Source of the DNA: Opitutia bacterium
Lineage (GTDB): Bacteria > Verrucomicrobiota > Verrucomicrobiia > Opitutales > Opitutaceae
Direction of reading: 5' to 3'
DNA length: 35,907 bases
NCBI GenBank assembly: GCA_947449835.1
Contig: CANFSZ010000024.1
Span: forward strand, 1 to 35,907
In this document: positions 819 through 11,710 of the stretch, in pieces
Numbering within the stretch: the stretch's first letter is position 1
How the letters are laid out: every line of letters begins with the position of its first letter
Notes under the pieces: generated by a model
The model's database searches: none
The model's input: only the letters and a program-made list of their open reading frames with translations
What the model was told of the DNA's origin: nothing
Made by a program: the position numbers and the translations under genes

Positions 819-1394
819 ATGACCACGCGCCGCCTGCTACCGGCCCTCGTCTGTTTGTTGTTATTGGGCCTTTTCGTGTGGTGGCTTTTGCCGCGCGCGC
901 CCGAGCCGGAAATCGAGCCGGCTCGCGCTCGTGCCTCCGCGATTCTCGTAGCTACTCCGGAAGTCGCCGACGCTCGCCGCGAAAAAAATTCCTCGCCCTC
1001 GCCGCGCGTTCTCACCGCCCCGTACGAAGCCCCGGCTTCCCTCGCCGCCGAATTGAACTCGCCGCGCTCCGACATCACGCGCGACCTCAACCTCATCAAC
1101 GACCTGTTCACCAACTGGCGCATCAATTTTCCCCGTCTCGGTCACCCGTTCGGCGAAAACGCCGAGATCACCGCCGGTCTCATCGGCGAAAATCCCTATC
1201 GCTTGCCCCTCATGCCGCGCGACCACCCCGCGATCAACGCCGCCGGCGAACTCACCGACCGTTGGGGCACGCCTTTTCTTTTTCACGCCCTCGCCAGCGA
1301 CCGCATGGAAATCCGTTCCGCCGGACCCGATAAAAAATTTGGCACCGCCGACGATGTGCGCCTCACGCCTCCCGGCCTTGATCCGCCTTTGTAA
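819..1394 (+). CDS. membrane-anchored protein with a GspG-like C-terminal domain
   Basis: This is a 191-residue protein with one N-terminal hydrophobic segment (about residues 6-24), preceded by two arginines, then an Ala/Pro/Glu-rich linker (25-80). The C-terminal part resembles the last portion of major pseudopilins. DRWGTPFLFH (147-156) parallels LDPWGEPYQY of the GspG encoded just downstream, and SAGPDKKFGTADDV (167-180) parallels its SKGPDKADGTEDDI, the loop that binds calcium in GspG. It lacks the prepilin peptidase site (G/A-FTLLE), so it is not itself a pseudopilin. Lying directly before gspG, it could be a periplasmic accessory that mimics or contacts the pseudopilus tip; that role is inference. 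The start is the ATG that places the hydrophobic segment at the N-terminus; no Shine-Dalgarno is visible. I do not know a named family for the whole protein. Confidence 0.8.
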   Translation: MTTRRLLPALVCLLLLGLFVWWLLPRAPEPEIEPARARASAILVATPEVADARREKNSSPSPRVLTAPYEAPASLAAELNSPRSDITRDLNLINDLFTNWRINFPRLGHPFGENAEITAGLIGENPYRLPLMPRDHPAINAAGELTDRWGTPFLFHALASDRMEIRSAGPDKKFGTADDVRLTPPGLDPPL

Positions 1395-1429
1395 ACGCAT
1401 ACCGCCCGCGCGGCGTTTTGGTGTTTTTT
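1393..1429 (+). terminator. possible intrinsic terminator before gspG
   Basis: AAACGC (1393-1398) can pair with GCGTTT (1413-1418). A further CGC/GCG pairing lies across a small bulge, and the stem is followed by TTTT and a run of six T (1424-1429). It overlaps the stop codon of the preceding gene. It could separate that gene from the gsp operon, which would then start from a promoter within 1430-1548. Confidence 0.35.
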
Positions 1430-1548
1430 ACGGGTCAGCAGCGGCCTCTTCGGCGGATCGAGCGCGTTTCCCTGCTATTTTCCTGCAACCTCTGGCCGCC
1501 GCCAGCGTCTCGACAACGACCCCAGTATCCCCAAATTTAATCTTCATC

Positions 1549-2037
1549 ATGTTCGCTACCCAACCCTCGTCCTGCTCGCGTTCGCGCTTTTCCGCTCGCG
1601 CCCGCCGCGCCTTCACGCTCCTCGAAATCCTCGTCGTGCTCGCCATCATCGGGCTCCTCGCCGGTCTCGCCATCAGCAACGTCGATAAAATCTTCGGCGG
1701 TGCGCAAGTCACCACGGCCTCGCTCTTCGTTAAAGAGAGCATGAAAACCTCGCTCACGACCTATCGCATCCACCTCGGCGATTATCCCTCGAGCGCCGAA
1801 GGCATCTTGGCCCTGGTCGCCGCTCCCGCCAACAAGGCCGACCGTTGGCGCGGCCCCTACATCGAAGGCGGCAAAGTTCCCCTCGATCCTTGGGGCGAGC
1901 CCTACCAATACCGTTATCCCGGCACCAAAAATAAAGGCGGCTACGACCTTTATTCCAAAGGCCCCGACAAAGCCGACGGCACCGAAGACGACATCGGCAA
2001 CTGGGATTCCACCGCGGCTGCTACGCCCGGAAAATAA
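1549..2037 (+). CDS. gspG: type II secretion major pseudopilin GspG
   Basis: This 162-residue protein is the major pseudopilin that assembles into the periplasmic pseudopilus of the type II secretion system. A 21-residue basic leader (RSRFSARARRA) is followed by the type IV pilin-like signature FTLLEILVVLAIIGLLAGL, with the required Glu at mature position 5 (E26). The C-terminal half has DPWGEPYQY (113-121) and the calcium-loop element SKGPDKADGTEDDI (136-149), both diagnostic for GspG. I chose ATG 1549 because it gives a normal leader; an in-frame start at 1339 would add 70 residues overlapping the previous gene. The residue before the cleavage site is Ala21, not the usual Gly. The next gene starts 3 bp after the stop, so it heads a packed operon. 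Confidence 0.95.
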   Translation: MFATQPSSCSRSRFSARARRAFTLLEILVVLAIIGLLAGLAISNVDKIFGGAQVTTASLFVKESMKTSLTTYRIHLGDYPSSAEGILALVAAPANKADRWRGPYIEGGKVPLDPWGEPYQYRYPGTKNKGGYDLYSKGPDKADGTEDDIGNWDSTAAATPGK

Positions 2038-2040
2038 TTC

Positions 2041-2625
2041 ATGATCGAGTGCGGCCAGCAACCGGCGGCAGGCGGCCGGGCCGCGCGGGTGGGGCGCTTC
2101 GCTCCCTTCGTTTCCCGTGTATATCGCCGCGGCTTCACGCTGCTCGAGATGCTCCTCACGCTCGCGCTCATCGCATTGCTCGCGGGCGCGCTTATCGGCG
2201 GCTCCTCCGCGCTGCTCGCCGAGAAACCGCCTTCGGCGGACGATGTTTTTTGGAGCACCGTTCGCACCGCGCGCAAGACCGCTCTGAACGCTGAGCAAGA
2301 TCTCAACCTCCGCTACGACGAGAAAACCAAAGCCTTCCAGCTCACGCCGCCCGACGGCAACATCCAGTCGTTTCCGATCCCCGTCGCCGGCTCCGGCAGC
2401 GATCTCATCGTCGAATTTCTCGCCGCCCAAAAAACCGGCGGTTCCATTCTCCTCGGTGGCACCGTCGTCGAAACTGAGCCCTTGAGCGGCGGTGTGACAT
2501 TTTACGCCGATGGCACTTGCACGCCCTTCCGCCTGCAGATTCGCGTCAACGGCGGCGCGCACATCATCGCGCTCGACCCGTGGACGTGTTCGCCGGTGCT
2601 CACGCCACCAAAAGCCACGCCGTGA
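2041..2625 (+). CDS. gspH: type II secretion minor pseudopilin GspH-like
   Basis: This 194-residue protein has a prepilin-type leader of about 31 residues ending in YRRG, then FTLLEMLLTLALIALLAGALIGG (cleavage after G31, Glu at +5). The rest is a soluble beta-rich region of the size expected for a GspH minor pseudopilin. The C-terminal region is poorly conserved in this family, so the GspH label rests on the N-terminus and the order G-H-I-J-K. It starts 3 bp after gspG and its TGA overlaps the GTG start of gspI, which indicates translational coupling. GspH is thought to sit just below the I-J-K tip complex of the pseudopilus. Confidence 0.85.
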   Translation: MIECGQQPAAGGRAARVGRFAPFVSRVYRRGFTLLEMLLTLALIALLAGALIGGSSALLAEKPPSADDVFWSTVRTARKTALNAEQDLNLRYDEKTKAFQLTPPDGNIQSFPIPVAGSGSDLIVEFLAAQKTGGSILLGGTVVETEPLSGGVTFYADGTCTPFRLQIRVNGGAHIIALDPWTCSPVLTPPKATP

Positions 2626-3116
2626 TCTCGCCCGTTTTTTCTCTTTCCGCGCGCGCCCCGCGCTCCGTCGCCGGCTTCAGTCTGCTCGAAGTCCTCGTGG
2701 CACTGATGATCTTCGCGCTCTCGGCCATCGTGCTCGGCTCCACGTACGTTAATATCCTCAACAGCTACGAGGCCGTCGCCCGCGGCAACACGCGCGACGA
2801 AGACGTCGCCTTCGCCCGCGCCCAACTTCTCGCTCAACCCGACCGCGCCAAAGTCGAAGCGGGCGCGGAATTTGATTCGCTCGAAAACCGTCACGTCCGC
2901 TGGAGCGCGACGCTCGCCAGCACGGCGATGCCCGACCTTTTTGCCGTCACCTTTTTGTGCGAAGTCACCGATATGTCCAAGGGCGGCGACGCGCAAAAAA
3001 CCACTCAGACTTTCACGGTGTTGCGCCCCACGTGGTCCGATGCGGCCGAGAAAACCCAACTCCGCCAAGCCGTGCGCGACCGCATCGCAGAACTTCAAGG
3101 CACCAAGAAAAAATGA
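2622..3116 (+). CDS. gspI: type II secretion minor pseudopilin GspI-like
   Basis: This 164-residue protein starts with a short leader ending SVAG, then FSLLEVLVALMIFALSAIV, a typical GspI signature (cleavage after G18, Glu at +5). I chose GTG 2622, which overlaps the gspH stop as GTGA, because it yields a normal 18-residue leader. An in-frame start further upstream (2517) would add 35 residues translated from inside gspH. The C-terminal TFTVLRP element and overall length fit minor pseudopilin I, which in the family nucleates the I-J-K tip complex. Its stop overlaps the start of gspJ by ATGA. Confidence 0.88.
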   Translation: MISPVFSLSARAPRSVAGFSLLEVLVALMIFALSAIVLGSTYVNILNSYEAVARGNTRDEDVAFARAQLLAQPDRAKVEAGAEFDSLENRHVRWSATLASTAMPDLFAVTFLCEVTDMSKGGDAQKTTQTFTVLRPTWSDAAEKTQLRQAVRDRIAELQGTKKK

Positions 3117-3799
3117 GCCCGCGCCGCCACATTTTTTCTCCTGCCGCGCGTTGTGCGCGCCGCCGCGCGGGCTTTACTCTCCTCGAGATTTTGCTCTCGC
3201 TCGCGCTCGTCGCGTTGATGCTCGTCGCGCTCAACACCTTTGTGTTTTCCATGGGCGAACTCTGGGGGAAAAACACCGACATCCGCCTCTTCGAGCAACA
3301 CGTCCGCGCCGTCACCCGCGCCCTCGATCGCGAACTCCGCGCCGCCACCCTTCCGCCCGCCGCCCGCGCCAACGCCAGTCCCGTCGCGCCTCAAGAAATC
3401 CGCCCCAGCGGTGGCGTCACCGACACGTTGCTCACCTTTGAACTTCCCGCCGGCACCCGCCTGATTAGCTGGCCCGGTCCCGCGCTGCCCGAAGTCGTGT
3501 GCTCGCTCCAAGCCCGCCAAAACGAAGGCCTGATCCTACTGTGGCATTCCCGTCTCGAACCCCGCTTCGAAGCCGATCCTCCGCGGGAGACGATCCTGAC
3601 TCCTTTCGTCACCGCCATTGCTTACGATTACTACGACACCGCCTTGCTGCGCTGGACGACCGAGACGGCCGTCAAAAAAGACAACACCGGCAAATACACC
3701 GCACCGCAGCGCCTCCGCTTGAAATTCGCTTACGGTGCGTTCACCCGTGAGACCGTCGTCAATCTCGGCAACACCCCGCAAGGGTTACCCAATTTTTAA
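3113..3799 (+). CDS. gspJ: type II secretion minor pseudopilin GspJ-like
   Basis: This 228-residue protein has the leader MSPRRHIFSPAARCARRRAG, then FTLLEILLSLALVALMLVAL (cleavage after G20, Glu at +5). The ATG at 3113 overlaps the gspI stop (ATGA). The length and the beta-rich C-terminal part, with LRLKFAYG near the end, match GspJ, a component of the pseudopilus tip. gspK follows after 6 bp. An in-frame start upstream at 2957 would run through gspI and is not needed. Confidence 0.88.
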   Translation: MSPRRHIFSPAARCARRRAGFTLLEILLSLALVALMLVALNTFVFSMGELWGKNTDIRLFEQHVRAVTRALDRELRAATLPPAARANASPVAPQEIRPSGGVTDTLLTFELPAGTRLISWPGPALPEVVCSLQARQNEGLILLWHSRLEPRFEADPPRETILTPFVTAIAYDYYDTALLRWTTETAVKKDNTGKYTAPQRLRLKFAYGAFTRETVVNLGNTPQGLPNF

Positions 3800-3805
3800 C
3801 CGGCG

Positions 3806-4966
3806 ATGAAAGCACGCTCTCTTTCTTCCGTCCGCGCCAGCGTCCTCGTGATCGTGATGGTCACGCTGATTTTCACGGCTCTCGCGCTCACCGTCTTCCT
3901 TGAAAAAGCCTCCAACGACCTGATCGTCGAAGCCCGCGAAGCCGACACCCGCCGCCTCCGGCAAGAAGCTTATTCGGCCCTCGAGACCACGCTCTCTGTC
4001 CTAGAAGAATTTCGCCTCGTCACCAACGGCCTCCACACGCCCGCCGAAGGTTGGTCCGACCCTCTCGGTTTCGCCGGCTACGTTCCCACCGAGGGTCGCA
4101 CGGTCACGGTCACTTTTGAAGACGAGAGCGGTAAACTCTCCCTGCCGCAGACGGGCGCTAATCAGCTTCAAAACCTCTTTCTCGCCTTCGGCCTCACCAA
4201 CTACGACACCGAGAAACTCACCGACATCATGCTCGGCTGGATGAAGCGGAATCACACCTACACCACCGCTCAATCGCCCGATTACGAACACGCCGCCTTA
4301 GCCTACGCCGCGCCGCTGCGCTCGCTGCGTTCCTACAGCGAACTCGCCGCGATCGATTTTGCGCGCACCATCTTCTTCGACGAAGCCGGTCACCCCAACG
4401 ACCTCTACCGCCGCTTCGTCGAGAACGTTTCCCTGCTCAATTTCCAGCGCACTAACCTCAACGGCGCCAAATCCGACGTCCTCACCGCTCTCGGCGAATT
4501 CGACGAAACGCAGAAAACCAAGCTCTCCGACTACCTCGCCGGCACCGGCCAATCCGCCTACAACGGCCCCGGCTGGTTCACCGCCTCCAACGACGCCCGC
4601 AAATTTCTCGGCTCCGCCGGCCGCGCCAACACCTTCGGCACCACCATCAGCGCCCTCCGTATCCGCCTCGTTGTGCAAGAAGGCCGCGCCCAATACCGCC
4701 TCGATGTCGTCGTTTCCCCCCAAGGGGGCGGGGCAACCACCGTGCTGACGACCGCAACCAACACCCGCGCCAATACGTCTGACGAACAAGCCGCCAGTGC
4801 CGCCAACATCTCCACCACCTCCCGCCCCACGACCACCCCGTCCTCCGCCACCACCGCCGCCGCGGCCAGCACCCGGCTCAATTACCCGTTCACGATCCTC
4901 CAACTCGCCGAAAACGAGCCCCTGCCGCCGCCTCCACCGCCTCCACCGCCTCCACCCGCGCCCTAG
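3806..4966 (+). CDS. gspK: type II secretion minor pseudopilin GspK-like, with poly-proline tail
   Basis: This 386-residue protein starts with a basic N-terminus and a hydrophobic segment (about 12-32, SVLVIVMVTLIFTALALTVF) without the Glu at +5, as is usual for GspK, the tip pseudopilin. The cleavage position would fall after Ala11. The central region (about 110-300) contains the alpha-helical insert typical of GspK, for example LTDIMLGWMKRN followed by LRSYSELAAID. The C-terminus is odd: a Ser/Thr/Ala-rich stretch (about 320-365) is followed by LNYPFTILQLAENEPL and then eleven prolines and a final AP. That tail is encoded by a 9-bp tandem repeat (4928-4954) and is not a normal part of GspK. 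It lies 6 bp after gspJ. Confidence 0.87.
   Translation: MKARSLSSVRASVLVIVMVTLIFTALALTVFLEKASNDLIVEAREADTRRLRQEAYSALETTLSVLEEFRLVTNGLHTPAEGWSDPLGFAGYVPTEGRTVTVTFEDESGKLSLPQTGANQLQNLFLAFGLTNYDTEKLTDIMLGWMKRNHTYTTAQSPDYEHAALAYAAPLRSLRSYSELAAIDFARTIFFDEAGHPNDLYRRFVENVSLLNFQRTNLNGAKSDVLTALGEFDETQKTKLSDYLAGTGQSAYNGPGWFTASNDARKFLGSAGRANTFGTTISALRIRLVVQEGRAQYRLDVVVSPQGGGATTVLTTATNTRANTSDEQAASAANISTTSRPTTTPSSATTAAAASTRLNYPFTILQLAENEPLPPPPPPPPPPPAP
4928..4954 (+). repeat. CCGCCTCCA x3 tandem repeat in the gspK tail
   Basis: Three exact copies of the 9-mer CCGCCTCCA (4928-4936, 4937-4945, 4946-4954) encode Pro-Pro-Pro units at the extreme C-terminus of the GspK-like protein. Units are in frame, so copy-number change would lengthen or shorten the proline run without a frameshift. 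Confidence 0.9.
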
Positions 4967-5054
4967 TCGTCGCCAACCTTTTCGTTTTTTCGCTTAAACG
5001 TTCTCCCTTTCTCGGCCATTCTCCCTTTTTCTCCTCTCGCCAACCTATTTTCCG

Positions 5055-6227
5055 ATGAGCGATTCGCCCCTCCACTTTCTCCGCGCCGGCCCCCCGCCGC
5101 CCAAGGTCTGTCTCTTGCCCGACGCGCTCTTCTTCACCCGCGCCATCCCGATCGCCGCCGAAACGCCCGCTGCGGACGTCGCCTCGCAGGTCGAACTTGC
5201 TCTTGAGTCCCTCGCGCCGTTCCCCGTCGCCCAGCTTTATTACGGTTACTATTATCCGCCCGGTGCCAGCGCCGCGCTCGTCTTCGCCGCTTATCGCCGC
5301 CGCGTCACGGCCGAACAATCTGACCTTTGGAACGAAGCGGATCTCGTCCTTCCGACCTTTGCGGCTCTGCTTGGCGCCCCGCTCGCTGCCGGCACCACGT
5401 TAATCCTTACGCACTCAGACAGCCTCACGGCGCTCCACGCTGCCGCCGAGGGCCCCGTGCAGATTTTCACCACGCCGTTCGCCCCGGCCACCGACGACGT
5501 CCCCGCCCACGAGGCCGCTCTCGCCGCCGCTAAAGTTGAACTCCTCCGTGTGGTCGGCGGTAGCACCAACGTCCTCGATCTCGCGACGCTGCCCGTCGCT
5601 CAAGCCGCCGCCCGCGATGGCGATTTCACCTTTGTCGCCGGCGAAATCACCTCGCGCCTGCCCGCCGTGATCGCCGCCGATCTCGACGTCCGCGACAAAG
5701 CCGCCCTCTTGGCTCGCCGCCGTGGTTTCGCCCGCGACGTCATGTTCTGGCGTGTCGCCGTCGGCTGCGTGCTCGCGCTTTTGTTCATGGGTCTTGGGGA
5801 GATTTCCCTCGGCGCCGCTCGCGCCACCTGGCAAAAAGTCCGTCTCACTCAGCTCTCCGCCCAGCGCCCGACCGTCGAGAAAATCATGAACGCGCAGGCT
5901 CTAGCTACGCGCATCGAAGACCTCTCCACCAAACGCCTGCTCCCGATGGAGATGATCTCCGTCGTCGCCGCCAAGATTCCCGGCACGATTCGTTTCTCGC
6001 GCGTTGTCACCGACGCCAAAGACCTCGAACGCGTCACCATCGACGCGCGCACGGATAACAGCGGCGAGATCACGCTGTTTAAAACCGCCCTCGAAGCGCT
6101 CCCTGAAGTCTCGCACGCCGAGATCAGCGGCCAACGCAACGCCCCCGGCTCGCCCACCACTACCTTCACCCTCACGACCACCTTCAAAGCCGGCGCCGTC
6201 AAACCCGCCGCCACCGCCGCGCCATGA
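5055..6227 (+). CDS. GspL/PilM-PilN-like inner-membrane assembly protein of the type II secretion system
   Basis: This is a 390-residue protein. Residues 1-225 form a soluble region that would lie in the cytoplasm, with the actin-like GspL/PilM shape suggested by VELALESLAPFP near the N-terminus. A single membrane segment follows at about 230-250 (MFWRVAVGCVLALLFMG), then a coiled stretch (about 255-290) and a small periplasmic ferredoxin-like domain (about 300-375). This cyto-TM-peri plan matches GspL, which links the secretion ATPase GspE to the pseudopilus platform. Sequence conservation is low, so the name rests on architecture and on position between gspK and a GspM-like gene. Its TGA overlaps the next start as ATGA. 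The 88-bp leader before it (4967-5054) is very pyrimidine-rich and has no Shine-Dalgarno. Confidence 0.72.
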   Translation: MSDSPLHFLRAGPPPPKVCLLPDALFFTRAIPIAAETPAADVASQVELALESLAPFPVAQLYYGYYYPPGASAALVFAAYRRRVTAEQSDLWNEADLVLPTFAALLGAPLAAGTTLILTHSDSLTALHAAAEGPVQIFTTPFAPATDDVPAHEAALAAAKVELLRVVGGSTNVLDLATLPVAQAAARDGDFTFVAGEITSRLPAVIAADLDVRDKAALLARRRGFARDVMFWRVAVGCVLALLFMGLGEISLGAARATWQKVRLTQLSAQRPTVEKIMNAQALATRIEDLSTKRLLPMEMISVVAAKIPGTIRFSRVVTDAKDLERVTIDARTDNSGEITLFKTALEALPEVSHAEISGQRNAPGSPTTTFTLTTTFKAGAVKPAATAAP

Positions 6228-6754
6228 TCCGCACCCTCCGCGCCCTATTCCTCGCCCGACTTTTCCGCGAGAAACTTCTCCTCGTCGCGTTCGCCGTCCT
6301 CGGCGTGGTGATGTGGTTTTCTGGCTTCAGCACTCGCGTCGGCACCTTCTGGCGCGAGCAACGCTCCACCAGCATTTCTCTCGCCGAGCAGAAGCAATGG
6401 CTCGCCAACCGCACCGCCATCGATGCCTCCGCGCAGAAAGCTGCCGCCCGCCTCGACGCCGCCCAGACGCTCGACGCCACGCGCCTCTACGCTGAGGTCG
6501 ATAAACTCGCCCGCGCCGCCGGCGTCACTCCCGGCCTCGGCGAGCAACGCGACGTCACCGGCGACCAGTTCTCCGTGCACTCGCTCCAAGTCACCATCAC
6601 CAAAGTCGATTGGGAGGCGTTGAAAAAATTCTACCTCAACCTCCAGGCGCGCTCCCCGTATATCAGCATCGAGCAATTTACGCTCAACGCGCCCCCCTCG
6701 GGCACGCCCCTCACGGCGGTGCTCCGCGTTTCCTCGGTCGAAGTCGCCAAATAA
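6224..6754 (+). CDS. GspM/PilO-like inner-membrane protein of the type II secretion system
   Basis: This 176-residue bitopic protein has a short basic cytoplasmic N-terminus, one membrane segment (about 18-36, LLLVAFAVLGVVMWFSGF), a helical periplasmic region rich in Ala/Leu (about 45-105) and a C-terminal small alpha/beta domain (about 110-175). This is the GspM plan; GspM pairs with GspL to hold the inner-membrane platform. It overlaps the GspL-like gene by 4 bp (ATGA), so the two are almost certainly co-translated. It is the last gene of the packed secretion operon. The gene 94 bp further on belongs to a different functional group. The name is by position and topology, not by strong sequence identity. 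Confidence 0.7.
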   Translation: MIRTLRALFLARLFREKLLLVAFAVLGVVMWFSGFSTRVGTFWREQRSTSISLAEQKQWLANRTAIDASAQKAAARLDAAQTLDATRLYAEVDKLARAAGVTPGLGEQRDVTGDQFSVHSLQVTITKVDWEALKKFYLNLQARSPYISIEQFTLNAPPSGTPLTAVLRVSSVEVAK

Positions 6755-6847: not shown

Positions 6848-7996
6848 ATGACACCGCGTCCGTCTCCCGCCCTGCTCCTCGCCGCCGCTCTCGCCGTCCT
6901 CGCGCCTCGGGGCGCTTGCGCCGAGAATTCCGTCGCCTACAAATGGTCCGATTACCGCGAATCCGGCGGTCGCGTCGCCGTTGAGACGCAGACCGCGCTC
7001 ATCGAGCACGACATCGGCACGGATTATCACGCTCGCATCACCGGCACGCTCGACGCGATCACCGGCGCCACGCCCACCGGCGAACCCGCCCCCAAAGGCA
7101 GTGACCAAGTCCGCCTCACCGATCTTCACGATCGCCGCAAAGCTTGGAACGCCGATTTCTCCCGCCAGTTTGCCCGCGTTAATCTCGCCCTCGGCTTCGG
7201 CAACTCCCGCGAGAGCGACTACGTTTCCAACGGCTGGTCCCTCAACGCCCTCACCGATTTCAACCAAAAGAATACCACGCTTCTCATGGGCGTCGCCGGC
7301 ACCGACGACGACGTGAAAGTCTTCTTCCAACCCAACCGAGTCAAAAAACGCTCCAACGACGTCATCGTCGGCGTCACCCAACTCCTCGACCCCCGCACCT
7401 CCGTCACGCTCAACGCCACTTGGGGCCGCACGACCGGATACATCAGCGACCCCTACAAGCTCGTCGAAAAAAACGTCGAGCTACTGCCCGGTATTTTTCT
7501 CAGCCAGACCTTCGGTGAAAATCGCCCCGGCGAGCGCGACAAGTGGATCGCCCTTGCGTCCCTCAACCGCGCCTTCCCCACGCTCCGCGGCGCCCTCGAC
7601 TCTAGCTACCGCTACTACCGCGACACCTTCGGCACCAGCGCCCACACCGTGGAGACCGCGTGGTTCCAACGTCTCGGCGAGAAATTTATCCTCCGTCCCG
7701 GCTTCCGTCTCTACCAACAAAGCGCCGCCGATTTTTATTACTACAACCTCGACCGCACGCCGATCCTCCCCGGCCGCCGCCCCAATCCCGCCGGCCCGTT
7801 CTATTCCTCCGATTACCGGCTGTCAGCTTTCCGCTCCTACAACACCGGCTTGAAGCTCATCTTCAACGCTACCGACGCGCTGCAATTCGACGCTGCCCTC
7901 GAGCGCTACGACATGCGCGGCCGCGACGGCGTCACTCCCGCCAGCGCCTACGTCCGCGCGACCATTCTCACCCTCGGCGCCCGCTTCGCTTGGTAA
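6848..7996 (+). CDS. DUF3570 outer-membrane beta-barrel protein, candidate flavoprotein
   Basis: This 382-residue protein has a clear signal peptide (h-region ALLLAAALAVLAP, cleavage expected after GACA, about residue 25). The remainder is made of alternating polar/hydrophobic strands and ends in an aromatic residue (RFAW), as outer-membrane barrels do. The family call DUF3570 rests on the N-terminal region with DAITGATPTG and on the following ApbE, thioredoxin and DUF4266 genes, a recurring neighbourhood for this family. DAITGAT at residues 69-75 fits the ApbE acceptor consensus D-x-x-[ST]-G-A-[ST], so Thr75 is a candidate site for covalent FMN. I chose ATG 6848 for its signal peptide; a GTG at 6782 would add 22 residues before it. 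The biochemical role is unknown; a flavin-bearing outer-membrane redox protein is my inference. Confidence 0.85.
   Translation: MTPRPSPALLLAAALAVLAPRGACAENSVAYKWSDYRESGGRVAVETQTALIEHDIGTDYHARITGTLDAITGATPTGEPAPKGSDQVRLTDLHDRRKAWNADFSRQFARVNLALGFGNSRESDYVSNGWSLNALTDFNQKNTTLLMGVAGTDDDVKVFFQPNRVKKRSNDVIVGVTQLLDPRTSVTLNATWGRTTGYISDPYKLVEKNVELLPGIFLSQTFGENRPGERDKWIALASLNRAFPTLRGALDSSYRYYRDTFGTSAHTVETAWFQRLGEKFILRPGFRLYQQSAADFYYYNLDRTPILPGRRPNPAGPFYSSDYRLSAFRSYNTGLKLIFNATDALQFDAALERYDMRGRDGVTPASAYVRATILTLGARFAW
7052..7072 (+). other. predicted FMN-attachment motif codons in the DUF3570 gene
   Basis: These seven codons encode Asp-Ala-Ile-Thr-Gly-Ala-Thr. In NqrC, RnfG and FMN_bind proteins the last Thr/Ser of this pattern is esterified by ApbE with FMN. 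The site lies soon after the signal peptide and immediately upstream in the operon of an ApbE gene. That modification occurs here is a prediction. Confidence 0.6.
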
Positions 7997-8033
7997 GTTA
8001 ACTTTTCTCCCGCGTTCGCTCCCGCCTTCGTCC

Positions 8034-9023
8034 GTGGCCCTCGTCCTCCCTAGTCACCGCGCCCCACCACCCCCCGCCGCTACGTCGGCGACGGACATCC
8101 CGCTGCGCGTGCTCACGTGGTCCGCCCTCGGCACCCGTTGCGAAGTCCAATACGCTGCGACTTCCGCCGCCCAAGCCCAGGCCTTTGAAACCGCCGCCGT
8201 CGCCTGGGTCGCCGCCTTCGAAGCGAAATATTCCCGCTTCCGCCCCGACAGCCTCATCTCGCGCATCAACGCCGCCGCCGGCCGCGCGCCCGTCGCCATT
8301 GACGCCGAGATGGAAGGCCTTCTCGCCCTGTGCGACCGCCTTCATTTCATGACGCAAGGCGTGCTCGATCCCACCGCGCTGCCGCTGCTGCGCCTCTGGG
8401 ATTATAAAGCCCCGTCTCCTCGTCTCCCCACCGACGCCGAGCTCGCCGCCGCGCAACGCCTCGTCGGTTGGAGAAAAGTTCAACGCACGCCCGGCCACGT
8501 GTTTTTGCCCGAGCCCGGCATGGCCCTCGATTTTGGCGGCTTCGGCAAAGAATGGGCCGTCGATATCGTCGCCCAGATCGCGCGTGACCTCGGCCTCACC
8601 GCCGCGCTCGTCGATTTTGGCCACGACCTCCGCGCCGTCGGACTCCCGCCCGGTCGCCCCGCGTGGCACATCGGGCTCGAAGACCCTGCCGCCCCTGGCG
8701 CGCTCAAAGGTTCGCTCGCGCTCACCCGCGGCCAAGGTGTCGCTTCCTCAGGCGATTACCTGCGCCGCGTCGTCATCGACGGCGTTCGCTACGGCCACAT
8801 CGTCGACCCGCGCACGGGCCGCCCCGTCGCCAACGGTTGCCGCCAAGCCACCATCATCGCGCCGACTTGCCTGCAAGCTGGCGTCCTCAGCACGGCCGCG
8901 TTCGTCCTCGGCGTGAAAGCCGGACTCGAGCTCATCCAAGCGCAACCCGGCGCCGAAGGCCAACTCCTCACCGATTCCACCCGCGCCCAAACCCGCGGTT
9001 TCTGGAACTACGTCGCCACCTAA
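8034..9023 (+). CDS. apbE: FAD:protein FMN transferase, ApbE family
   Basis: This 329-residue protein matches ApbE, which moves FMN from FAD onto a Thr or Ser of target proteins. Visible family elements are SLISRINAAAG (73-83), LDPTALPLLRLW (111-122), the DFGGFGKEWAVD box (166-177), SSGDYLRR (238-245), HIVDPRTGRP (255-264) and AGVLSTAAFVLG (282-293). Two points are unusual. There is no signal peptide after the GTG start at 8034, and no in-frame upstream ATG, GTG or TTG would add one. The metal-ligand segment reads AGVLST where canonical ApbE has ADALST, so the Mg-binding Asp is Gly283. It starts 37 bp after the DUF3570 gene, which carries a matching acceptor motif, so the two probably act together. 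Alternative: a divergent or inactive ApbE. Confidence 0.9.
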   Translation: MALVLPSHRAPPPPAATSATDIPLRVLTWSALGTRCEVQYAATSAAQAQAFETAAVAWVAAFEAKYSRFRPDSLISRINAAAGRAPVAIDAEMEGLLALCDRLHFMTQGVLDPTALPLLRLWDYKAPSPRLPTDAELAAAQRLVGWRKVQRTPGHVFLPEPGMALDFGGFGKEWAVDIVAQIARDLGLTAALVDFGHDLRAVGLPPGRPAWHIGLEDPAAPGALKGSLALTRGQGVASSGDYLRRVVIDGVRYGHIVDPRTGRPVANGCRQATIIAPTCLQAGVLSTAAFVLGVKAGLELIQAQPGAEGQLLTDSTRAQTRGFWNYVAT

Positions 9024-9035
9024 AAATTTCCTTCC

Positions 9036-9530
9036 ATGCGCTCCGTTTTTTTCTTCGCCCTCGTCCTCACGTTTTCGACCAGCGCCGCGCGCGCCGACAT
9101 CAAAGTCGGAGACGTATTCCCCGCGCTCGCCACCGCCGGCCTCACCGGCGGCACCGTGCCCGCGACCGAGGGCAAAATCCTCGTCGTTGATTTCTGGGCC
9201 TCGTGGTGCGCGCCGTGCAAAGCGTCGTTTCCCGCGCTCGGCAAAATCAACGCCGACTACGCCCCGCGCGGCGTCGTCCTGGTCGGCGTGAGCGTCGATG
9301 AAAAAGCCTCGGCCTACGCTGCGTTCGTGAAGAAACAAGCCCCGCCGTTTCCCGCGCTCCACGACGCCGCGCAACAACTCGTCCGCGCCGTCGTCGTCCC
9401 CGCGATGCCCACGACGTATGTGATCGGCCGCGACGGTAAAGTCCGCTCCCTCCACGCCGGTTACCACGGCGCCACCACCGATCAACTCCTCCGCGCCGAA
9501 CTTGATGCCCTCCTCGCCGAGAAATCCTAA
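9036..9530 (+). CDS. periplasmic thioredoxin-like TlpA/ResA-type protein
   Basis: This 164-residue protein has a signal peptide (cleavage expected after AARA, residue 20) and one thioredoxin fold. The active site is WCAPC (Cys58 and Cys61) preceded by VVDFWAS, and the cis-proline element is VPAMPTTYV. This is the TlpA/ResA/DsbE arrangement of extracytoplasmic thiol-disulfide reductases. It starts 12 bp after apbE and ends 26 bp before a small lipoprotein with a Cys-Gly-Cys tail, which is an obvious candidate partner. The substrate is not known. The leader AAATTTCCTTCC before the ATG has no Shine-Dalgarno. Confidence 0.92.
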   Translation: MRSVFFFALVLTFSTSAARADIKVGDVFPALATAGLTGGTVPATEGKILVVDFWASWCAPCKASFPALGKINADYAPRGVVLVGVSVDEKASAYAAFVKKQAPPFPALHDAAQQLVRAVVVPAMPTTYVIGRDGKVRSLHAGYHGATTDQLLRAELDALLAEKS

Positions 9531-9556
9531 AGCATTTCCCCTTTCTCCCAAATCCC

Positions 9557-9787
9557 ATGCGCTCCCGCCTCCTCCTAGCCTTGCTGCTCGCCGCCACCGC
9601 GCTCGTCTCTGGCTGCGCCACGACCACCGCCCGCGTCCAACCTTGGGAGCGCGCCACGCTCGCCGATTACACGATGCGGCCTGACCGTGATCCGCTCGCG
9701 CTCGCTCTCGCCGAACACGTTTATTTCTCGCGCGAATCCGCCGCTGGCGGCCGCGGCGTGGGTGGCAGCGGTTGCGGCTGTAACTGA
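9557..9787 (+). CDS. DUF4266 small lipoprotein
   Basis: This 76-residue protein has a lipoprotein signal with lipobox LVSGC (lipidated Cys20). The mature part, only 56 residues, has the DUF4266 pattern: VQPWERATLADYTM, then DPLALALAEHVYFSRE, a Gly-rich stretch, and the C-terminal Cys-Gly-Cys-Asn. The two C-terminal cysteines could form a disulfide or bind a metal and may be handled by the thioredoxin-like protein encoded just upstream. DUF4266 genes recur beside DUF3570, ApbE and thioredoxin genes; the function is not established. It is the last gene of this four-gene block; a 75-bp gap follows. Confidence 0.88.
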   Translation: MRSRLLLALLLAATALVSGCATTTARVQPWERATLADYTMRPDRDPLALALAEHVYFSRESAAGGRGVGGSGCGCN

Positions 9788-9862: not shown

Positions 9863-11710
9863 ATGTCCTTTTCCGCTGCCCTCCATCGCCGCCTGCATTG
9901 GCTGAATCTCCCCGGCGCGCTGCTCATCGCGCTGCTCCAGCGGACCCCGATCATCCGCGTCGCCGCGACCGCGGGGGATTACGTTCTCAGCTCCACCGCC
10001 GGCAACGTCCTGAAAGCCGCCGCCACCACGCTCGGCGCCCTCGGCGCGGTGCACAGCATGGCGGGTGCGACCACTTTGAGCGCATCGACCCCGAGTCCGG
10101 CCAGCGGGACTGTGGGAGTGGTTTTCAACACGGTGGTGTTCTCCGTGAAAGGTGCGCAATCCGCAGCGAGCTCCTGGACGGTCAACGGCGGTGTCCCGCC
10201 TGGCCTCTCCCTCAAAGCGTATGGCACCACCACCACTGGAGTCACCAGCGGACTGATTAACAACGCATCCACTCTACAACTCGACGGCACACCCACTTCC
10301 GCGGGACAATTTTTACTTTCGCTCACCGCGTGGGAAAGTGCCGGTGCTAAAAACACCTCCACAACTTTTACCTACGTCATCAACATCGCCGCCGCGCCCA
10401 ACTCCGCGCCGACGATCTCCACGCAGCCCACTTCGAAAACCGTCGCCGCCGGAGGCACGGCTCAATTTATCGCCGCGGTCTCCGGTTCACCTACCCCCAC
10501 GCTGCAATGGTTCAAAGGCTCCAGCCCCATCTCCGGCGCCACCAGCACGATCCTCACCATCTCCGGCGCTACCTCGGCTGACGCCGCCACTTATACCCTC
10601 GTAGCCACCAACTCACAAGGTTCCGCCACCAGTAACGCGGTAACATTGACTGTGACCGGCGGGGTCACGGCACCTACGATCACTACGCAACCGAGCGCGA
10701 GCGCTGTGTCCGTCGGGAGCGCCGCGAGTTTCACGGTGGTTGCCAGTGGCAGTTCACCGCTCACTTACGATTGGAAAAAAGACGGCACGTCGATCAGCGG
10801 CGCGACCAACGCGACCTACACGATTGCCTCCGCGGCCACGAGTGACGCCGGTAGCTACACGGTGGTGGTTTCCAATAGCGCGGGATCGGTCACTAGCACT
10901 GCCGCCAGCCTCACCGTCACCGCGACGAGCACCACGGCGCCGCGCCTCTCCAACCTCTCCGTCCGTACCGCCCTCACGGCTAATCAGATCGTGATCGTGG
11001 GCTTCACTATGAGTGGTGGCTCGAAGCGCGTGTTGCTCCGGGCGGTCGGACCCACGCTCGCTGCCTTCGGTGTGCCCGACGTCATGGCTAACCCGATGCT
11101 CGATCTCTACGCCGGTGCCATCAAGGTAGACTCCAACGACAATTGGGGCGGGAGCGCGGCGTTGAGTGCTTCCTTCCAATCTGTGGGCGCATTCAGCTAC
11201 GCGGCGAGCACCAGCCTCGATGCGGCGCTGGTTACAACCATCGAAGGAGGTCGCACGCTCCAAGTTTCGGGTCCTGCCGCCGGCACCGTGCTGGTCGAAG
11301 GCTACGATGCGGGCACGGGCGACACGCCACGTTTCACCAACTTATCCGCGCGGAATAAAGTGGGCACTGGCGCCAACATTCTCATCGCCGGTTTCACGCT
11401 CGCCGGCGACGGTGCGCGTAATCTTTTGATCCGCGCGGTAGGACCCAAACTATCCGAATTCGGCGTCACTGGCGTGCTGACCGATCCCAAACTCGAGATC
11501 TACAGCGGCAGCACCAAAATCGCCGAAAACGATAACTGGTCCGCTACGCTGGCGGCCACCTCCGCATCCGTCGGCGCTTTCGCGCTCACCGCAGGCAGCA
11601 AAGATGCCGCGATCACCGTCTCCCTGCCGGCAGGTGGTTATACGGTTCAAGTCTCCGGCGCCGATGGCGGCGTGGGCGAGGCGATCGTTGAAATCTACGA
11701 ACTCCCGTAA
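9863..11710 (+). CDS. large Ig-like-domain protein with C-terminal tandem repeat domains
   Basis: This 615-residue protein is likely exported or surface-attached. Residues 1-70 form an unusual N-terminal module (LNLPGALLIALLQRTP at 14-29, then an Ala-rich amphipathic stretch ending SMAGAT) that does not look like a standard signal peptide. Residues 71-175 resemble a putative-Ig (He-PIG) domain with GVPPGLSL and LDGTPTSAGQFLLSL. Two Ig-like domains follow at about 180-265 and 268-352, each with the P-x-I-x-x-Q-P start and an AATYTLVATNSQGSAT-type end. The C-terminal 255 residues are two copies of a repeat of about 125 residues (about 358-485 and 490-615), each with LSNLSxR or TNLSAR, GF, LLRAVGP or LIRAVGP, and NDNW. 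No catalytic motif is visible. It is convergent with the LEA14-like gene 21 bp away. Confidence 0.85.
   Translation: MSFSAALHRRLHWLNLPGALLIALLQRTPIIRVAATAGDYVLSSTAGNVLKAAATTLGALGAVHSMAGATTLSASTPSPASGTVGVVFNTVVFSVKGAQSAASSWTVNGGVPPGLSLKAYGTTTTGVTSGLINNASTLQLDGTPTSAGQFLLSLTAWESAGAKNTSTTFTYVINIAAAPNSAPTISTQPTSKTVAAGGTAQFIAAVSGSPTPTLQWFKGSSPISGATSTILTISGATSADAATYTLVATNSQGSATSNAVTLTVTGGVTAPTITTQPSASAVSVGSAASFTVVASGSSPLTYDWKKDGTSISGATNATYTIASAATSDAGSYTVVVSNSAGSVTSTAASLTVTATSTTAPRLSNLSVRTALTANQIVIVGFTMSGGSKRVLLRAVGPTLAAFGVPDVMANPMLDLYAGAIKVDSNDNWGGSAALSASFQSVGAFSYAASTSLDAALVTTIEGGRTLQVSGPAAGTVLVEGYDAGTGDTPRFTNLSARNKVGTGANILIAGFTLAGDGARNLLIRAVGPKLSEFGVTGVLTDPKLEIYSGSTKIAENDNWSATLAATSASVGAFALTAGSKDAAITVSLPAGGYTVQVSGADGGVGEAIVEIYELP

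Follow-up and report, generated by a model that had tools for sequence, protein, structure and literature searches.

A predicted flavin-carrying outer-membrane barrel and a leaderless ApbE subfamily in a four-gene module of Opitutaceae

The window analyzed here is a stretch of 35,907 nucleotides, contig 24 of an Opitutia bacterium genome (3.0 Mb in 156 contigs, 86.7% complete), and its subject is a module of four consecutive + strand genes. The first gene, DUF3570 (6848..7996, +), encodes a predicted outer-membrane beta-barrel and flavin mononucleotide (FMN) acceptor, with a signal peptide at approximately residues 1-25, judged by eye. Its product, read from the ATG at 6848, carries the stretch D69-A-I-T-G-A-T75 (codons at 7052..7072, +), of which Thr75 (mature Thr50) is the predicted acceptor, at the top of strand 3 on the lumen side. 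It is followed by a flavin adenine dinucleotide (FAD):protein FMN transferase of a leaderless ApbE subfamily (8034..9023, +, with a GTG start as called), a secreted TlpA/ResA-like thioredoxin with the stretch SWCAPC (9036..9530, +), and a DUF4266 lipoprotein (9557..9787, +) with the lipobox Cys20 and a Gly-rich tail ending in GCGCN. All four matched Pfam families well above the cut-offs: DUF3570 (PF12094) with 218.3 bits (cut-off 25), ApbE (PF02424) with 241.5 bits (cut-off 25.6), the thioredoxin with 71.8 bits for AhpC-TSA and 70.1 bits for Redoxin, and DUF4266 (PF14086) with 79.8 bits. A first-pass annotation had named these four genes and placed DAITGAT at residues 69-75, and both statements hold. 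The Cys-Gly-Cys that it put at the very end of the lipoprotein is present but not terminal, as the real end is Cys-Gly-Cys-Asn. The closest named relatives of the window are metagenome-assembled genomes titled Opitutae or Opitutaceae.

In E. coli, the DUF3570 protein of Chlorobium luteolum receives flavin from its cognate ApbE, and flavinylation was abolished only once both of its two acceptor Ser had been changed (Meheust et al. 2021, PMC8238504). The same study lists DsbD-containing clusters, 227 with DUF3570, 183 with a PF13899 thioredoxin and 221 with DUF4266, and 316 further ApbE/DUF3570/thioredoxin/DUF4266 clusters without DsbD. The module of the window is a variant of this published flavin system. 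The main inference of the first-pass annotation, that the barrel itself is the ApbE acceptor, is thus right but already published. Its view that the chemistry had not been described is contradicted by PMC8238504, which names the cluster and proposes electron transfer between thioredoxin, DUF4266 and flavin, so that an undescribed system is excluded.

To examine the module more widely, patterns taken from the C-terminal half of DUF3570 were used to retrieve relatives, and the best 80 of at least 593 matching stretches are called named relatives below. The gene order DUF3570-ApbE-thioredoxin-DUF4266 was found in 57 of these 80, while 6 have the first two genes only, 6 are without ApbE between the others, and 11 show other or cut arrangements. 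Because the order recurs across the named relatives, the recurring neighborhood suggested earlier is real and the grouping is not due to chance; together with the Pfam matches, this recurrence excludes chance or mis-annotation of the four genes. In one locus (L099:3475-8364), an ApbE-thioredoxin-DUF4266 set precedes a full module, and no DUF3570 belonging to that earlier set was recognized within the retrieved stretch. In two others, DUF3570 lies in broken frames (L118:5484-7592 and L156:5982-7390, in two and three pieces), possibly through assembly errors. The thioredoxin WCxxC is kept in 88 of 91 rows, and DUF4266 has a lipobox-like stretch in 95 and a GCGC[NYF] end in 97 of 98 rows. DUF3570 is present in 30 of 288 genomes of the same phylum, taken to be Verrucomicrobiota from the window's closest named relatives. 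DUF4266 was found in 42 of 387 genomes, a larger draw that possibly does not contain all of the 288; these include 29 of the 30 DUF3570-positive ones, all but G226 with its weak DUF3570 match, and no genome scored as DUF3570-negative among the 288 has DUF4266. A tblastn search of plasmids gave matches from Vibrio and Hymenobacter only.

The DUF3570 alignment contained 114 rows (the window and 113 others, identical C-termini removed). Since the rows were fetched either by the C-terminal-half patterns or, for the non-named ones, by the Pfam model, they were not selected by the acceptor motif alone. The acceptor column holds T in 101 rows, S in 12 and a gap in one, and the strict motif [DN]xx[STA]G[AST][ST] is satisfied in 103 rows. 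The proposal of the first-pass annotation that the motif would be conserved mainly beside ApbE fails in this simple form: loci without an adjacent ApbE (for example L081, L089, L105 and L110) keep it. The 11 rows off the strict motif comprise five with V at position 4, three with SSAS, one with AGNT, one truncated and one misaligned fragment. The third residue before the acceptor is A in 54 rows, S in 30, T in 24, V in five and a gap in one; as A is the commonest residue there, a strict [S/T] at this place would miss many.

Two classes of DUF3570 locus can be told apart. Class I, the window type, ends strand 3 with [DN]x[IV]xG[AS][ST]P, and some of its members (L149, L150, L151, L155, L160 and L163) have a second site, (K/R)AGAT, in a long low-complexity loop between strands 3 and 4. 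Class II (L164-L166, L201 and L202) has DxVSSAS at the end of strand 3 and [ST]GAS about 14 residues later, while the Hymenobacter locus L169 has SSAS, no [ST]GA[ST] site and a leader-bearing ApbE. Class II ApbEs have leaders, as scored in L166 and L169 and judged by eye in L164, L165, L201 and L211; the L166 score stems from a wrongly placed domain start, but its leader is also visible by eye. The ApbEs of L164-L166 keep the canonical KG and D residues, that of L201 keeps KG with the D not located by the pattern used, and the Hymenobacter ApbEs have QG instead of KG, with the D present in L211.

The AlphaFold2 model of the window DUF3570, built from an 86-row alignment, is an 18-strand barrel with a mean predicted local distance difference test score (pLDDT) of 94.9 and a predicted TM-score (pTM) of 0.89. 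A structure search returned 949 matches in the PDB, of which the 50 listed are all outer-membrane proteins. The model and these matches back the earlier reading of DUF3570 as a beta-barrel, and a closed, even-stranded outer-membrane barrel with a signal peptide is what the prediction gives. The loops from odd to even strands are 4, 13, 2, 8, 7, 5, 4, 36 and 11 residues long and the even-to-odd turns 2-4 residues, with both termini placed in the periplasm. The motif ends strand 3, and mature Thr50 lies at a height of 0.94, near the extracellular end, with lumen parity. Thus, with the orientation taken from general barrel rules, the acceptor Thr is predicted to face the lumen near the extracellular mouth. 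Lumen-side conservation climbs toward the extracellular end (Spearman 0.35, p 8e-5). Strands hold 24 of the 40 residues with the highest conservation, 17 of them in the outer half, compared with 123 of 239 strand residues overall. In a class II model (pLDDT 86.8), the stretch QSGAS is placed in the loop after strand 3, the stretch itself largely having pLDDT below 50.

The ApbE of the window has neither a signal peptide nor a lipobox in a hydropathy scan, unlike the products of its partner genes. The scan was a generous one over all possible starts, with a threshold score of at least 1.9. Among the class I ApbEs, a leader-like segment was found in one of 87 scored rows (L168 was unscored), and this one, L118, is a frame artefact in which the broken frames read DUF3570's own leader into ApbE. 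The partners, on the other hand, scored as leader-bearing in 85 of 99 DUF3570, 78 of 81 thioredoxin and 88 of 88 DUF4266 rows, with 5, 2 and 0 unscored. The class I ApbE of Vibrio is also leaderless, and in one genome (G032) with a DUF3570 locus devoid of ApbE, a leaderless class I ApbE was found on another contig. The window's own genome encodes three further ApbEs, and of these L057 and L059 reach the threshold. The class I ApbEs form one group (support 93/86, not starred) in a 45-row tree that was made from every third named row plus others and includes 38 class I sequences.

The subfamily also has an active-site signature. In the window, Glu173 (codon 8550..8552, +), within GKEWAVD, forms one half of it: all 88 module ApbE rows have Glu directly after the lysine position, and the eight other rows aligned have Gly there. 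The other half is Gly283 (codon 8880..8882, +), which aligns with the conserved Asp of solved ApbEs. We take this Asp to be D280 of E. coli Ftp because of its spacing to the Thr ligand; metal site 1 of that enzyme has D280 and T284 as side-chain ligands and T166 as a backbone ligand (PMC4767422, Table 3). This column is Gly in 87 of the 88 module rows, with one gap, while the catalytic His of HI[IV]DP is kept in all 88 and the Thr metal ligand in 86. Judging from the sequences, the metal ligand may have moved, with the new Glu possibly replacing the lost Asp. A DNA pattern for the Glu half only, GxGKE[YW]A[VI]D, matched 24 of the 288 genomes, all of them among the 30 DUF3570-positive ones, and its reversed control gave no matches. 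The DUF3570-positive genomes missed by the pattern are class II (G113, G173 and G262), class I with KEF/KEH (G223 and G233), and G226. Together, the missing leader, the changed residues and the occurrence of the Glu-half pattern only in DUF3570-positive genomes of this sample suggest loading of the flavin before export.

In many Opitutaceae, the cluster has a fifth gene, which in the window encodes an immunoglobulin (Ig)-domain protein (9863..11710, +). Its conserved N-terminal segment (LLQRTP...HSMAGAT; 9866..10102, +) ends in H64-S-M-A-G-A-T70 (codons at 10052..10072, +), a candidate second FMN acceptor or signal-peptidase site, and the approximately 80 residues shared by these proteins matched no family in Pfam or NCBIfam. 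One cluster of 75 large Ig-type open reading frames (ORFs) covers 64 of 110 loci, and 52 of the 70 placeable ORFs lie on the DUF4266 strand and have their start -200 to 600 bases beyond that gene. A segment profile was built from 25 seeds chosen with the motif and then cut before it. It gave 72 hits in 61 loci, 65 of them reaching the profile end, and 61 of these 65 have [AST]GA[TS], the others being VGAT, VGAT, VGAS and SAAT. With at most 19 candidates scored per genome, the segment was found in 15 of the 288 genomes, all DUF3570-positive. Every one of the 11 DUF3570-positive genomes in the window's family has it, as do 4 of the 5 from the rest of the class, and the 14 from the rest of the phylum gave no match. 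In a separate test within the family, it was present in 6 of 6 DUF3570-positive and 0 of 10 negative genomes. In a single case (G280, L152:8328-13019), the Ig/cadherin/TIG protein after DUF4266 has a cytochrome c domain at its start in place of the AGAT segment (PF00034, 23.5 bits against a cut-off of 21.3; a further two related models stayed below cut-off). Across 56 loci, the -3 residues of DUF3570 and the Ig protein are tied (A/V versus S/T, [[31,0],[19,6]], p 0.005), to which we give little weight because L118 and L124 are mis-registered and relatedness is uncorrected.

The barrel fold, the site position, the leaderless ApbE subtype and the co-occurrences are computed, and DUF3570 flavinylation is published for a homologue; from these we infer the place of loading, the direction of electron flow, the threading of the tail, the terminal acceptor and the role of the Ig protein. 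The leaderless, presumably cytosolic ApbE would load FMN onto Thr75 while the DUF3570 precursor is still awaiting Sec export, after which the barrel would insert into the outer membrane with the FMN inside its extracellular mouth. Reducing equivalents would originate from a DsbD-type thiol donor in the inner membrane, whose gene lies elsewhere, and be handed to the secreted WCAPC thioredoxin. They would then move to the CXC tail of DUF4266, and this tail possibly reaches into the barrel lumen. From the tail, they would go to the FMN and then to a cell-surface acceptor, perhaps via the Ig-domain protein. In the class I module of Vibrio, a DsbD gene adjoins ApbE (PF02683, 289 bits; PF11412, 87 bits). 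On balance, we lean towards pre-export loading of the barrel combined with such a thiol/flavin path to the surface as the explanation of the whole. A bolder version appears doubtful to us: a dedicated cytosolic ApbE loads both the barrel and the Ig surface protein before export, the CXC lipoprotein threads the lumen of a haem-free flavin/thiol wire, and the flavin segment can be swapped for cytochrome c. Exported proteins are generally considered to receive covalent flavin outside the cytoplasm, and a leaderless ApbE lineage whose signature occurs only in barrel genomes (24 of 24 in the sample) would mean that FMN attachment before Sec export is possible. If true, the system would be a haem-free electron route across the outer membrane, with a site at the extracellular mouth, a CXC-tail carrier and a candidate surface partner.

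The same flavinylated barrel could also be loaded in the periplasm as an unfolded chain, as in standard systems, by an ApbE exported through a route invisible to hydropathy. Most bacterial ApbEs seem to be secreted (PMC12052999), and the class II clusters do have leader-bearing ApbEs; however, practically the whole of class I, including Vibrio, is without a leader-like segment (86 of 87 scored rows, the exception being the artefact), while the partner proteins score high in the same scan. We consider periplasmic loading rather unlikely. An even less probable alternative, to which we give little credence, is that the class I ApbE has lost its transferase activity and now serves as a chaperone or as a factor that binds FAD, the DUF3570 motif being kept as a structural turn. 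The near-universal change of the metal-site Asp to Gly would fit this, as would the statement of a 2015 paper that, in Treponema Ftp, transfer depended critically on no enzyme residues except the metal ligands (PMC4767422). Against it, the His and the Thr ligand are retained, the loss of the Asp coincides with a nearby new Glu that may replace it, and the acceptor position of DUF3570 keeps a Thr or Ser, the latter in 12 of 114 rows. For the fifth gene, two readings of the motif, as a second flavin acceptor or as a signal-peptidase site, are about equal from sequence, and we give only slightly less than an even chance to [AST]GA[TS] being solely the AxA cleavage site of an extended signal peptide, with the Ig protein an ordinary surface protein traveling with the cluster. 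The sites preferred by signal peptidase I follow a hydrophobic run and have A at -1 and A, S, T or V at -3; the motif fits this preference and the segment reads as a signal peptide. Moreover, the segment is absent from 15 of the 30 DUF3570-positive genomes, so the flavin system can do without it. On the other hand, G occupies -2 in 64 of 65 copies and T or S occupies +1 in all 65, neither G at -2 nor T at +1 being, to our knowledge, a known requirement of signal peptidase; all 15 genomes with the segment have DUF3570, and one relative has the cytochrome c domain in its place.

Several points weigh against loading of the barrel before export and an electron path through it. Flavinylation of Thr75 is predicted, the biochemistry coming from the Chlorobium homologue, and the window DUF3570 has one [ST]GA[ST] site where the published protein has two (PMC8238504). 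The activity of the window ApbE could be altered or lost, because the metal-site-1 Asp of E. coli Ftp is absent. The absence of a leader rests on hydropathy and not on a trained predictor, and a missing leader is by itself not special, since a further ApbE homologue of the window's genome (L060, G000 contig 27, unscored) also looks leaderless by eye and has the canonical KG/D residues. The TM-scores to PDB entries are low (0.24-0.56, by query), so the resemblance is to barrels in general. Lipid-facing conservation drops with height (Spearman -0.20, p 0.03), lumen and lipid facing having been assigned from the same alignment as conservation, and loop conservation does not differ between the two barrel sides (p 0.24). 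DsbD-family proteins were found in seven of eight genomes searched, including G000 and the DUF3570-negative G014 and G016, but a genome search of G004, which has the module, gave no DsbD-family match, so DsbD does not track the module. Finally, the counts are not independent because the genomes and loci are related.

The remaining genes near the module are taken as neighbors only. Directly upstream, at 1339-6754, lies a type II secretion system (T2SS) pseudopilin run consisting of GspG, three N-methyl pseudopilins, GspK, an unmatched probable GspL and a weak GspM; GspK/L/M homologues are present in 31-33 of 110 loci. The window opens, at 1-765, with a gene for a DUF1501 protein.

In MtrCAB and other porin-cytochrome conduits, a barrel likewise serves electron transfer through the outer membrane; the carriers there are multihaem cytochromes, and those of the window system would be flavins and thiols. 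The cytosolic ApbE of Klebsiella pneumoniae is likewise without a signal peptide, but its target is a soluble fumarate reductase, while the target linked to the window ApbE has a signal peptide and a predicted barrel fold (PMC12052999). The periplasmic ApbE/Ftp of E. coli belongs to the same family and has the catalytic His and the Thr ligand in common with the window enzyme, which differs in having Gly for D280, no leader, and Glu instead of Gly after the K/E of the GxG[KE] stretch (PMC4767422). A later paper partly by the authors of PMC8238504 counts the outer membrane among the places where flavinylation substrates are located and, in the portion covered here, does not mention DUF3570 (PMC11334425), and within the open-licence literature, DUF3570, DUF4266, PF12094 and PF14086 were found in PMC8238504 alone. 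A term search of the main text of PMC8238504 gave no mention of barrel/porin, cytosolic ApbE or immunoglobulin/Ig-like, and the leaderless ApbE subtype, the barrel reading and the Ig gene were not found in the open-licence literature, a scope that has the supplements of that paper outside it. The closest known counterpart is the 'DsbD systems' of Meheust et al., in which the same four families cluster, DUF3570 is the ApbE substrate and DUF4266 ends in a conserved CXC. The window differs in its thioredoxin, which is of the AhpC-TSA/Redoxin type where the published one is PF13899, and in having its DsbD on another contig of the genome and not in the cluster. The first-pass annotation is partly supported; it overlooked the fifth gene as well as the missing leader and altered active site of ApbE. 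The core system was already known, and what is new here is the barrel model with the position of the site, the leaderless ApbE subtype and a possible fifth gene.

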